NCBI RefSeq assembly: GCF_030169785.1 | Contig: NZ_CP125854.1 | Span: forward strand, 1,426,001-1,490,000 | Length of the DNA stretch: 64,000 nucleotides | Source: Bdellovibrio sp. 22V | Lineage (GTDB): Bacteria; Bdellovibrionota; Bdellovibrionia; Bdellovibrionales; Bdellovibrionaceae | Direction: 5' to 3' | In this document: positions 23,125-30,749 of the stretch, piece by piece | Layout: the number at the start of each line of letters is the position of its first letter | How positions within the stretch are numbered: position 1 is the first letter of the stretch | Notes under the pieces: model-generated | Seen by the model: only the letters and a program-made list of their open reading frames with translations | Databases searched by the model: none | Told to the model about the DNA's origin: nothing | Program-made: the position numbers and the translations under genes

Positions 23125-23529
23125 CTAAGCACCCTTGTTGTTATTGAGAATGGCGTTGTAAGCCGTTTCCAAGAACTCCACCGACTCTTTGTCGGATCGA
23201 CGCAAGGCCGTTTGATACGCCTCGGTAACAAGTTTGATCGACGCCCCGGCCGGCACGCCCAAAACTTCATAGGCATCCCAACAATGACCATTGTAATTAA
23301 ACATCACATTTAGGTTCTTAGAGGCTTTATTTTGCAAATCAGGATGACGATGCAGAGCCACAACCTGCTGAGTCTTCTCAGGTTCGGCGTCTATCAGTGG
23401 CGGCGCGCTATCTTTTGCATTTAAATTGAGCTGCGTGGGACGAGTGCTTCCTCCCCGCGAAAGTAAATACCAAAAGATGAAAGCTCCCGCTCCCACTAAA
23501 TTCAATGTCAAAAAGTCTTGGCTATTCAT
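23125..23529 (-). CDS. Membrane-anchored J-domain-like protein lacking HPD
   Basis: 134 residues: N-terminal membrane span (about residues 8-23, LVGAGAFIFWYLLS), a variable linker, and a C-terminal segment HCWDAYEVLGVPAGASIKLVTEAYQTALRR that reads like helices I-II of a DnaJ domain. The HPD loop needed to stimulate Hsp70 is missing, so it would be a degenerate J-like domain that binds but does not activate. It diverges from mrp with only 50 bases between starts. Confidence 0.6.
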   Translation of the reverse strand: MNSQDFLTLNLVGAGAFIFWYLLSRGGSTRPTQLNLNAKDSAPPLIDAEPEKTQQVVALHRHPDLQNKASKNLNVMFNYNGHCWDAYEVLGVPAGASIKLVTEAYQTALRRSDKESVEFLETAYNAILNNNKGA

Positions 23530-23579
23530 CCAACTTCTATTATTCGTTGGAAGCCAAAATTTTTCAAGGAGTCCCATGC

Positions 23580-24374
23580 ATGGCAGCACCAAATCCGTTC
23601 GATAAGCAAACTGCGATTCCCGGAGTGAAACACATTATTGCCGTCAGTTCCGGTAAAGGGGGCGTCGGTAAAAGTACGGTGGCTACGAATCTTGCCATGG
23701 CGTTAGGTCGTAAAGCCAAAGTGGGTCTTTTGGATGCCGACATTTATGGCCCTTCCATTCCGCGTATGTTGGGAACACTTGGGCAGAAGCCTCAGATCAA
23801 TCCTGAGACAAACCAACTGGAACCAATCGTTCGTTACGGTATTAAACTGATGAGCATCGGTTTCTTGGTCGAAGAGGGGGCCGCTGTCGTTTGGCGTGGA
23901 CCTATGCTCTTTAAAGCGATGGATCAATTCCTTCGCGATGTGAACTGGGGCGAGTTGGATTACCTTCTTGTCGATCTTCCTCCAGGCACGGGCGACATTC
24001 AATTGACGTTGTCACAAAAAGTTCCCGTTGCAGGGGCCGTGGTTGTTTCCACTCCGCAAAACGTAGCTTTGCTTGACGTGAAAAAAGCCGTCGATATGTT
24101 CCAACGCGTGAATGTGCCTTTGCTCGGTATGATCGAAAATATGGCTTACATGATAAACCCGGTAAACGGTGAAAAAATGCAGCTCTTCCCTAAGGGAGAG
24201 ATGGATTCTTACGCCGCTTCGAAAGGCATTGCGAAGCTCGGTGAAGTTCCGTTCAATCCATCCGTGGGTCTTGCTTGCGAAGCAGGCATTCCAATCGTTG
24301 AGGCGAACACTAACGGCGCTGAAGCACAAGCCTTCATGCAAATCGCCGATCGCATTCGCACTATTCTTCCGTAG
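23580..24374 (+). CDS. apbC: Mrp/ApbC/NBP35-family iron-sulfur carrier P-loop ATPase
   Basis: 264 residues, the short form without the N-terminal DUF59 domain. Deviant Walker A GKGGVGKST, then DADIYGPSIPRMLG, the switch-like LVDLPPGTGDIQLTL and STPQNVALLDVKKAVDMF. The protein binds and transfers [4Fe-4S] clusters in the cytoplasm. The usual C-terminal CxxC is replaced by MIENMAYMIN without cysteines, so cluster binding by this copy is uncertain. AAGGAG lies eight bases before the chosen ATG. Confidence 0.92.
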   Translation: MAAPNPFDKQTAIPGVKHIIAVSSGKGGVGKSTVATNLAMALGRKAKVGLLDADIYGPSIPRMLGTLGQKPQINPETNQLEPIVRYGIKLMSIGFLVEEGAAVVWRGPMLFKAMDQFLRDVNWGELDYLLVDLPPGTGDIQLTLSQKVPVAGAVVVSTPQNVALLDVKKAVDMFQRVNVPLLGMIENMAYMINPVNGEKMQLFPKGEMDSYAASKGIAKLGEVPFNPSVGLACEAGIPIVEANTNGAEAQAFMQIADRIRTILP

Positions 24375-24545: not shown

Positions 24546-24580
24546 TTGAAAATAAAACTTTGGTCGAGATATCCTGAAAG
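24546..24580 (+). promoter_or_regulatory. Candidate sigma-70-type promoter for a non-coding transcript
   Basis: TTGAAA at 24546 and TATCCT at 24570 separated by 18 bases, within a long region with no accepted gene. Points into the structured sequence that precedes the riboswitch. Confidence 0.4.
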
Positions 24581-24581
24581 A

Positions 24582-24810
24582 GTTGAAACCACATGGCTCG
24601 GGAGACTTACCTCGGGTAAGTGAAAGCTTTTAGGGCCAAGCTAAGGGAGGACGCGGATGAAAAATCGAATTCACGATCATCATGATGAACCACCAAAGTG
24701 ACGTGCGAATCACCAGGATTGCTACCAAGAGGTTCACGGTTCAGGCCTCTCTAAAAGAATGATGAACAAGGTTGGATCTTGAAGAATAACTCAAAGGAGG
24801 TTCCTAGGGT
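24582..24810 (+). ncRNA. Possible structured RNA or leader with a 14-codon ORF
   Basis: The stretch after the candidate promoter forms two adjacent hairpins, ACTTAC/GTAAGT (24605-24621) and AGCTT/AAGCT (24625-24642). Then AAGGGAGG is followed six bases later by an ATG (24657) opening a 14-codon frame, MKNRIHDHHDEPPK, ending at 24701. A further hairpin AGAGG/CCTCT lies about 60 bases on. No known RNA family was recognised (tmRNA, RNase P, SRP and 6S were considered). It could be a separate RNA or the leader of a longer transcript that runs into the riboswitch. Low certainty. Confidence 0.35.
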
Positions 24811-24835
24811 TATACTCGTTAGGATTTAGATCCTT

Positions 24836-24922
24836 CCTTTGCCTCAAGGCAAACCATCGGAAACGGTGGGACGCAAAGCTAGAGGGGTGTCGGTGCAAGC
24901 CACGCCAGCCAGCTGCCAAAGG
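24836..24922 (+). ncRNA. Cyclic di-GMP-I (GEMM-I) riboswitch aptamer, merRNA type
   Basis: The aptamer is recognisable by its core: GGCAAACC (24848-24855), GAAA tetraloop (24860-24863), and GGGACGCAAAGC (24868-24879). It is closed by a P1 helix pairing CCTTTG (24836-24841) with CAAAGG (24917-24922); P3 is the GGTGT/ACGCC arm. GEMM-I RNAs bind c-di-GMP. No plus-strand protein gene follows; a terminator ends the RNA about 115 bases later. This matches the very abundant stand-alone riboswitch RNA (merRNA) described in attack-phase B. bacteriovorus. A TATACT at 24811 is a plausible -10. The likely transcript is about 24823-25036. Confidence 0.92.
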
Positions 24923-24952
24923 TGAGTCACCTGAGGAATCAGAGGTGTGCAT

Positions 24953-24997
24953 ATGGAAGGAACAAATACATACAAGGATTGGTTTCATTCCCCTTAG
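24953..24997 (+). CDS. Tiny ORF inside the riboswitch transcript (14 codons)
   Basis: ATG at 24953 preceded by AGAGG seven bases upstream opens MEGTNTYKDWFHSP, and the stop codon's last base is the first base of the terminator stem. It is the only start codon with a Shine-Dalgarno-like sequence between aptamer and terminator, so it is the only candidate for a gene controlled by the riboswitch in cis. Coding is unproven; such a short frame can arise by chance. Confidence 0.3.
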   Translation: MEGTNTYKDWFHSP

Positions 24998-25037
24998 CTT
25001 GCGAGTTATCACTGAAGATTCCTCGCAAGCACTTTTT
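24997..25037 (+). terminator. Terminator of the riboswitch RNA
   Basis: GCTTGCGAG (24997-25005) pairs exactly with CTCGCAAGC (25022-25030), with a 16-base loop, followed by ACTTTTT. It sets the 3' end of the merRNA-like transcript. Confidence 0.85.
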
Positions 25038-25052
25038 AAAAGCCTGCGAAAG

Positions 25053-25075
25053 AAATCCCGACATCGGGATTTTTC
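25053..25075. terminator. Bidirectional terminator between riboswitch RNA and converging gene
   Basis: AAATCCCGA-CA-TCGGGATTT followed by TT on plus. On the minus strand it lies 16 bases beyond the stop of the small secreted protein gene, so it probably serves that gene. Confidence 0.75.
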
Positions 25076-25090: not shown

Positions 25091-25504
25091 CTACTTTTTA
25101 AAATCAAAATCCATCAAGCAAGATTCCGCTTTATCGCCGCTACCATCTTGGTCGTCTTGCCCAGACCAATAATCACTCACTTCACAGCGGCCATTCTTAA
25201 ATACCGCCGAAGCGCCATAACAAGCAGACCCATCACAGAAAGTGAGATCTTCATTTTCGGGAGCTTCTCTATGGCGACAACCGTCGACAAGACTTTCTTG
25301 AAGGAACTTTTTAAAGTTGGCAACTTCCTCTTTCGCTTCTGGATAAGCAGCCACTTCTTTCGTGAACTCTTGCACCATGTACTTGCGCATCGCGATTGTA
25401 CATTGATATACAACGCCGTCGATGACTTCCACGTTTGTTCTTGTTTTTGCTTGAGCTGCGAAAGCTGCAACCACTGTCAACATTGCTACGATTAACATTT
25501 TCAT
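25091..25504 (-). CDS. Small Cys-containing secreted protein of unknown function
   Basis: 137 residues with signal peptide (MLIVAMLTVVAAFAAQA). Mature chain is acidic at its C-terminus (SGQDDQDGSGDKAES) and contains seven cysteines (YQCT, GCRH, FCDG, ACYG, RCEV, SCLM), suggesting a disulfide-rich periplasmic or exported protein. No family recognised. It converges on the riboswitch RNA. Confidence 0.75.
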   Translation of the reverse strand: MKMLIVAMLTVVAAFAAQAKTRTNVEVIDGVVYQCTIAMRKYMVQEFTKEVAAYPEAKEEVANFKKFLQESLVDGCRHREAPENEDLTFCDGSACYGASAVFKNGRCEVSDYWSGQDDQDGSGDKAESCLMDFDFKK

Positions 25505-29125: not shown

Positions 29126-30685
29126 TTATTGGGCTGATTCTGCAGGAATAACGAGGCGTGCGCCGACGACCAAAGAGGCCGGGTTTCTGATGCGATTCTT
29201 TTGTTTAATATCGCTCATCGAAACATTATACTTCGCCGCGATGGCAGACAGGTTTTCACCTCTGCGAACCACGTGAACTTTGGCTTTCGCAATTTCACGC
29301 GCCGAAGAACTGTCTGGCGTTGGCACCAAAAGCTTCATGCCCACTTTCAAAGTACGACCTCGTTTGATGTTGTTCATACGTTGAAGCTGAGAAACGCTTG
29401 TAGAGTATTTTCTTGCAATCGTGAACAAAGAGTCGCCGGATTGAACGATGTAATAACGTCCATCGGAACTTACTGTCACAGTTTGTTTTTCAGAGGAAGA
29501 ATTCTTTGCGACCAATGTTTTCTTTGTCGATACACGGTCTTTCAAAGGCGTACGATCTGGAACTTGGATTCTCATCCCCACGCGCAAAGCTTTACGGCGA
29601 GGAAGATCGTTCAAATCACGCAGATATGCCACAGTCGTACGGTAACGACGAGCCACTGTGCTCAATGTGTCGCCACGACGGATACGATATGTTTGTGTGT
29701 CGCCTGTATCGGCAATGAATCTTACGTTATCAACGAAAGCTTCATTGGCTGCCACAAGAGCTGTTTCACTTGTTCCCGGAGGAATACGCAAAACCAGTTC
29801 GCTGCCTTTAAGAACGGCGACTTCCCCTTTGAACTTTGGATTCAAAGCTTTGAAGTCTTCGTAGTTCAAGTTCAACTTGTCAGCCATTGCACGAAGATTG
29901 ACAGGCTTGTTCACAGTGATGTGATCGAATTCGATCGGTGGAAGATAATCGATATCGTCAAAACCGTACTTCGCTGGATCTTTACCGATCATTTTTGCTG
30001 CGATGAACTTAGGAACGTAATTGATTGTTTCTTTAGGAAGTCTCTTCTTACGAGCGAGCTCCCAGAAATCACGGGTGTAGTGATTCATCACTTCACGCTT
30101 CACGCGGTTTTCACCCACGTTGTAAGAAGCCATCGCCAAGTACCAAGAACCGAAAACGCTGTAAAGACCTTTGAAGTATTCCGCCGCCGCTTGAGTTGCG
30201 AAAACAGGGTCACGTCTTTCATCCACGAACGCGTTGATATCCAAACCATACCGTTTACCCGTACCACGGATAAATTGCCAGTAACCCACAGCCGCGGCAT
30301 GCGACGTCGCTCTTGAACTGAAACCAGATTCGATCAATGCGATATAGAAAAGATCTTCAGGCAAACCATTGTCGCGCAAAACTTTTTTCATCAGTTTTTC
30401 GTAACGCGTGGAACGTGCTAAATATCTTTCCATGTGAGGACGGCCTCGTCCTTGGAAATAAGCAATCCATTTTTCAACAAGAGGATTCACTTCCGTAGGG
30501 ATGGACTCCAACTCTTGGTCGACCACCTTGGGTCCTTCTGGATCTGATAAGCGGAACGAACCGATATCTTTGATTTCCGCTTCACCATTGGCTCCTACTG
30601 AACCTTCGGTTTCCGTGCTCACGTTCTTATGAGCACACCCTGCCAAAAAGGCCAGGACCAAGCTCAATGTTAAAAGTCTCCTCAT
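29126..30685 (-). CDS. mltD: MltD-like lytic transglycosylase lipoprotein with three LysM domains
   Basis: Cleaves peptidoglycan glycan strands to 1,6-anhydro products. 519 residues with lipobox LAGC (Cys17). An SLT domain has the catalytic glutamate in ALIESGFSSRATS, followed by AAVGYWQFIRGTGKRYGL and MASYNVGENRV. Three C-terminal LysM repeats follow (YRIRRGDTLSTVARRY, YIVQSGDSLFTIARKY, HVVRRGENLSAIAAKY). The start was moved 17 codons in to the ATG with GGAGGG at five bases, which also gives the lipobox. It follows the Slt70-like gene by 64 bases on the same strand. Confidence 0.95.
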   Translation of the reverse strand: MRRLLTLSLVLAFLAGCAHKNVSTETEGSVGANGEAEIKDIGSFRLSDPEGPKVVDQELESIPTEVNPLVEKWIAYFQGRGRPHMERYLARSTRYEKLMKKVLRDNGLPEDLFYIALIESGFSSRATSHAAAVGYWQFIRGTGKRYGLDINAFVDERRDPVFATQAAAEYFKGLYSVFGSWYLAMASYNVGENRVKREVMNHYTRDFWELARKKRLPKETINYVPKFIAAKMIGKDPAKYGFDDIDYLPPIEFDHITVNKPVNLRAMADKLNLNYEDFKALNPKFKGEVAVLKGSELVLRIPPGTSETALVAANEAFVDNVRFIADTGDTQTYRIRRGDTLSTVARRYRTTVAYLRDLNDLPRRKALRVGMRIQVPDRTPLKDRVSTKKTLVAKNSSSEKQTVTVSSDGRYYIVQSGDSLFTIARKYSTSVSQLQRMNNIKRGRTLKVGMKLLVPTPDSSSAREIAKAKVHVVRRGENLSAIAAKYNVSMSDIKQKNRIRNPASLVVGARLVIPAESAQ

Positions 30686-30749
30686 GAGTCCCTCCGACAC
30701 AGCTTTCAGGCTACAAAACTCAAAAGCATTTTTCAATAAAACATCTCCC

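Follow-up and report, generated by a model that had tools for sequence, protein, structure and literature searches.

The locus raises the question of what a c-di-GMP-I riboswitch may act on when its RNA stands alone, ends at a terminator of its own and precedes no conserved sense gene. An RNA of this kind, merRNA, is known from Bdellovibrio bacteriovorus HD100; Karunker et al. (2013, PMC3627812), in the passages dealing with it, described it as a non-coding RNA that has no conserved ORF downstream and is conserved only within the Bdellovibrio lineage. According to these passages, it reached >2,000,000 RPKM in the attack phase (about 5000-fold over the growth phase), an amount comparable to that of the entire attack-phase mRNA, and no RNA of hunting Bdellovibrio cells is known to be more abundant; messenger binding instead of gene control was proposed as a hypothesis. 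Excerpts of a 2024 study (PMC11323537) report lowered merRNA in stator mutants turning into facultative predators, which fits a role at the switch between attack and growth. No ORF was named in the passages on merRNA covered by the literature search, subscription papers lying mostly outside it. The analysis described here suggests another reading, to which we give an even chance: merRNA would be a c-di-GMP-gated micro-mRNA with two tiny cistrons (sORF1 and sORF2) around one aptamer, rather than a non-coding RNA. Feature coordinates refer to the window, i.e., the whole 64-kb stretch of DNA analyzed (Table 1).

Table 1. Observed and predicted features of the merRNA locus, in window coordinates.
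Feature	Position	Strand	Evidence
Probable sigma-70-type promoter, TTGAAA-18-TATCCT	24546..24575	+	Promoter scan; genus alignment
Predicted merRNA transcript, ~446 nt	24592..25037	+	HD100 RNA-seq ends via alignment
5' hairpin, ACTTACC-tcg-GGTAAGT	24605..24621	+	Sequence; genus alignment
Shine-Dalgarno GGGAGG of sORF1	24645..24650	+	SD-like block kept in genus alignment
sORF1, 14 codons + TGA, MKNRIHDHHDEPPK	24657..24701	+	Synonymous bias; 6-nt in-frame indel; C-terminal motif
SD-like CAAAGGAGG, without start codon	24792..24800	+	AGGAGG conservation; pairing
Helix B 5' strand, ATCCTTCC	24830..24837	+	Covariation with 3' strand
c-di-GMP-I aptamer including P1	24836..24922	+	cmscan (core 24838-24920); P1 covariation
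Hairpin, CACCTGA-GGAA-TCAgaGGTG	24928..24947	+	Read from sequence and genus alignment
sORF2, 14 codons + TAG, MEGTNTYKDWFHSP	24953..24997	+	Frame and stop conservation; 52 family loci
Intrinsic terminator, 9-bp stem + T-run	24997..25037	+	Stem comparison across loci

The aptamer was identified by cmscan as c-di-GMP-I (RF01051; 60.3 bits, with 35 bits as the gathering score; E 2.6e-9), in line with the GEMM-I core proposed in the earlier note, and represents the sole Rfam match within the window as well as the only c-di-GMP-I copy detected by covariance-model search in the 3,601,631-bp genome. Its core is present in the sequence (GGCAAACC, GAAA tetraloop, GGGACGCAAAGC), and the P1 helix, which had been proposed to close at 24836/24922, pairs exactly outside the Rfam core (CCTTTG, 24836-24841, with CAAAGG, 24917-24922) and, across the order, scores higher for covariation than slid and shuffled controls. 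The c-di-GMP-I feature is genuine and far beyond chance; by covariance score and P1 the RNA is assigned to RF01051, and binding of c-di-GMP is predicted.

As judged by alignment, the window RNA is the orthologue of the HD100 merRNA, as had been suspected. In the genome taken as HD100, the single c-di-GMP-I match (1,073,868-1,073,951, minus strand) lies inside the merRNA interval given, on the basis of RNA-seq ends, in the part of PMC3627812 concerned (1,073,741-1,074,185, minus strand, 445 nt), and the HD100 ends map to about 24592 and 25037 of the window locus, enclosing a predicted transcript of ~446 nt that consists of a 5' part of ~240 nt, the aptamer and a 3' part of ~115 nt. The earlier note had let the element start at 24811, with a length of 227 nt; this start is wrong and, since the HD100 start is equivalent to about 24592, approximately 220 nt of conserved 5' sequence had been missed. 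Orthologous locus, one c-di-GMP-I element per genome, own terminator and a length of ~445 nt all agree with merRNA on the sequence comparisons made here, and the two RNAs also share the aptamer, the ends and an upstream Mrp-type ATPase gene. In contrast to merRNA as published, the element described here is order-wide and contains two micro-ORFs, the first clearly conserved and the second probable. Within the genus alignment, the TAT(C/T)CT block of the probable promoter is kept, and both stem sides of the 5' hairpin vary between species. This probable sigma-70-type promoter is not a FliA promoter; the HD100 table of PMC3627812 likewise leaves merRNA unmarked for FliA dependence.

Exactly one c-di-GMP-I element was found in 21 out of 24 genus genomes, the three genomes lacking it being fragmented assemblies (230-550 contigs), and exactly one match was obtained in 89 out of 141 genomes of the order. 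A Mrp/NUBPL-type ATPase gene upstream in sense and an SLT/LysM transglycosylase gene downstream in antisense were each present within ~1.5 kb in about 40 order loci, indicating that the locus is old; in the window, the ATPase gene is located at 23505-24374 and the SLT/LysM gene (29126-30736, minus strand) 4 kb downstream. The merRNA element is order-wide and not private to Bdellovibrio, which is new here; the narrower published range is explained by the genomes available in 2013. At the phylum level, c-di-GMP-I was detected in 137 of 369 genomes, and the more distant loci inspected (L092-L109) look unlike the order loci. In several of these, originating from another phylum family (f26; L092, L097, and L102 among them), the element is followed, in sense orientation, by a QueE-like radical-SAM gene and is perhaps an ordinary cis riboswitch.

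The terminator stem is exact (GCTTGCGAG, 24997-25005, with CTCGCAAGC, 25022-25030; T-run 25033-25037), as had been claimed, and stems of most related loci differ in sequence yet remain complementary. No long sense ORF was found for ~680 nt 3' of the RNA in the window, and the search for a conserved downstream sense gene across the order loci yielded sense-gene clusters in at most four genomes. A downstream sense gene was accordingly rejected as a general target, and the element is unlikely to exert classical control over one, which accords with the merRNA passages of PMC3627812. The earlier statement that no sense protein gene follows thus holds for conventional genes conserved across species; it does not extend to a coding-like sORF1 upstream and a probable sORF2 downstream of the aptamer.

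sORF1 bears the signature of a protein-coding sequence. In the alignment of 21 species, differences at codon positions 1/2/3 amounted to 374/354/905, 44% of the codon differences were synonymous (20% expected under column permutation, p 0.0018), the BLOSUM score reached a column-permutation p of 0.0002, and the 11 best by this score of 521 39-nt windows were all located in the sORF1 frame. In HD100 and two closely related species, 6 nt are deleted from sORF1 with the frame preserved (MRTHEHHDDELK, MRAHDHHDDELK), and the HD100 sORF1 lies within the mapped transcript (nt 65-103). Outside the genus, 38 out of the 68 order loci possess, 5' of the aptamer, an SD-led short ORF with a P[K/E]-stop end; dinucleotide-shuffled sequences gave a mean of 0.00, and the reverse complement gave none. 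Outside the family, sORF1 ends in LDPPPK/DPPPE written in many different codons (68% synonymous vs. 20%, p ~3e-4), and TGA, TAG and TAA all occur as stops across the order. On this comparative evidence, sORF1 is conserved at the protein level order-wide and is very probably translated in cells. The published description of merRNA as non-coding, itself an assumption, does not appear to hold, given these coding signatures; as HD100 shares them, it is the merRNA description that is corrected, membership of the window RNA being unaffected.

The P[K/E]-stop end is widespread, DPPP being found in other families; it was lost in the HD100 clade, where the HD100 sORF1 ends in DDELK. Polyproline (PPP) stalls ribosomes (PMC4176338), and the polyproline ends in other families suggest possible ribosome pausing. 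At locus L036, the mini-ORF upstream of the aptamer (MAKVKIFRLDPPPE) is succeeded by another that has its own SD (MKLHSKQWNLFPPPI), as if duplicated. sORF1 was sought and not found in L023, L025, and L028; L025 and L028 harbor small hairpins, for example GACAGGATGTC and CTTAC..AGGAG.GTAAG, resembling CsrA sites.

sORF2 is located between aptamer and terminator, and its SD-like AGAGGTG is contained in the hairpin at 24928-24947. Among the 28 family loci outside the genus that possess ATGGAA, 26 keep the frame into an FHSP-type end over nine different spacings (9-54 nt), and the frame exception L057 nevertheless translates to an HSP-stop end. In L037, L086, L088, and L089, other start codons follow GGAAGGA and still reach FHSP-stop or FFP-stop. 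The stop overlaps or touches the first terminator base pairs in 44 of the 47 loci with a scorable hairpin, which represent 30 distinct terminator stems. Frame or stop was lost in L017 and L055, sORF2 of L008, L009, L013, and L018 continues into the terminator, and no FHSP-type sORF2 was found outside the family. In L034, L045, L062, L063 and other family loci, belonging to several genera, an internal ATGGATTGGTTTCATTCCCCT represents an in-frame 7-codon ORF (MDWFHSP) inside sORF2.

Translation of sORF2 in cells is, on these patterns, fairly probable. The opposing view, that sORF2 is untranslated, ATGGAAGG and CATTCCCCTTA(G/A) being structural RNA blocks and sORF1 the sole gene, is doubtful. In its favor, no synonymous bias was found in sORF2, either in the 21-species alignment or in the family loci, its last codons are near-invariant with third positions included, and helix B uses the ATG region. 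Near-invariance in combination with the missing synonymous bias indicates that RNA-level constraint could account for much of the conservation. Structural blocks do not, however, explain why all but two loci stay in frame over nine spacings, nor why the alternative starts named above still lead into the same ends.

A physical connection between aptamer and sORF2 is provided by helix B, in which ATCCTTCC, just 5' of P1, pairs with GGAAGGA of the sORF2 start region (24955-24961); one pair covaries: most loci have CG, one genus has AU, and UA occurs elsewhere. Further upstream, AGGAGG was kept in 73 of 89 order loci, 28-67 nt before the aptamer and mostly with no start codon behind it, and the window version, CAAAGGAGG, is close to a full complement of the 16S anti-SD. 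It is able to pair with CTTCCTTTG (24833-24841) in competition with P1. This pairing fits most loci and is broken in L079/L080, for which reason the anti-P1 role was retained only as a possibility; ribosome standby is the other function that CAAAGGAGG may have. On folding energies, a bound-OFF and a free-ON state of sORF2 could not be told apart (alternatives within ~10 kcal/mol), and the SD-AUG region of sORF2 was about half unpaired across the modelled states, accessibility showing no clear difference. By analogy to c-di-GMP-I riboswitches and to the B12 riboswitch/uORF pairs of Mycobacterium tuberculosis, ligand-stabilised closure of the sORF2 start would be the likely mechanism.

Taken as a micro-mRNA, merRNA would be read at sORF1 near its 5' end, while the aptamer, via P1 and the adjoining helix B, would occupy the initiation region of sORF2, so that c-di-GMP would alter sORF2 translation, which is most likely OFF when the ligand is bound. 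Since the sORF2 stop is built into the terminator base, a finishing ribosome would cover the 5' arm and could feed back on formation of the RNA end or on RNA stability. This reading is based on the aptamer, orthology, distribution, the terminator, the sORF1 coding signature, frame and stop of sORF2, and the covariation of P1 and helix B; translation, ligand binding, switch direction and peptide function are predicted from them. The tmRNA-like abundance of merRNA counts against it, exceeding the needs of a leader. More tentatively, and with some doubt on our part, the dominant attack-phase RNA may as a c-di-GMP-gated bicistronic micro-mRNA help to choose between hunting and growth through its peptides or through held ribosomes. 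It is equally a tentative proposal that the only output of the riboswitch in this bicistronic form is a 14-codon ORF built into the terminator of the same RNA, and that this arrangement has been retained by many order members.

The pure reservoir of Karunker et al. (PMC3627812, merRNA passages), in which a non-coding buffer holds c-di-GMP during the attack phase and releases it at prey entry, is considered unlikely as the whole explanation. In its favor, it was argued there that the amount of merRNA approaches that of the total mRNA and that the class has an affinity of ~1 nM, and the intact aptamer and the missing downstream gene agree with it; for a buffer, however, the aptamer alone would suffice, and neither the order-wide protein-level conservation of sORF1 nor the kept frame of sORF2, with its stop at the terminator base, is explained. 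A sponge for CsrA (RsmA) tuned by c-di-GMP, in which GGA-bearing merRNA loops titrate the protein, appears improbable. Each of the 24 genus genomes encodes one csrA, GGA occurs in predicted hairpin loops 1.76 times per RNA (0.89 in shuffles), and ANGGA is more frequent than expected (4.73 vs. 2.80), a surplus partly due to Shine-Dalgarno blocks; GGA as such is hardly more frequent than expected (10.7 vs. 9.5), the enrichment is weak, and the terminator loop in this genus carries no GGA. A transcription attenuator, in which sORF2 translation blocks the terminator and polymerase enters downstream DNA, would suit the stop position and the f26 element before its sense gene and is nevertheless very improbable, because the downstream neighbor in the order is often antisense and convergent, with no conserved sense gene, and because the HD100 RNA stops at the terminator (PMC3627812, merRNA data).

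Compared to known systems, the window RNA shares aptamer sequence, structure and covarying P1 with the c-di-GMP-I (GEMM-I) riboswitches of RF01051, which are usually leaders of full-length genes, whereas here the RNA ends at most ~120 nt past the aptamer and the sole sense candidate downstream is a 14-codon ORF. Leader peptides of the TnaC type arrest ribosomes; sORF1 and sORF2 resemble them in a conserved C-terminus at the stop, PPP or SP-stop ends and a variable N-terminus, and differ in that polyproline is absent from much of the family, including HD100. The CsrB/RsmZ-type sponges are likewise abundant stand-alone RNAs in genomes with csrA, but merRNA is weakly GGA-enriched and contains an aptamer and ORFs. 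The M. tuberculosis B12 riboswitches (PMC11260477) similarly combine a riboswitch with short translated ORFs, as proposed here, and their uORFs control a real downstream gene, whereas none is conserved at this locus.

The published view of a Bdellovibrio-only RNA with no conserved ORF, as given in PMC3627812, appears to need revision. By the comparisons above, the order-wide range, the coding micro-ORF and the covariation of the joining helix are new, and so, probably, is a second micro-ORF wired between aptamer and terminator. The role of merRNA has so far been confined to that of a c-di-GMP store; if the micro-mRNA reading is true, merRNA may act via translation, beyond soaking up the messenger, its micropeptides would be separable from the aptamer by start-codon changes, and it would represent a rare riboswitch having a micro-ORF in a free-standing RNA as its only target.

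Beyond the 3' end of the RNA, a second terminator-like hairpin is located at 25051-25074 (AGAAATCCCGACATCGGGATTTTT), probably serving the convergent gene at 25091-25504 (minus strand), which encodes a 137-aa protein without a Pfam match and with a signal-like N-terminus.
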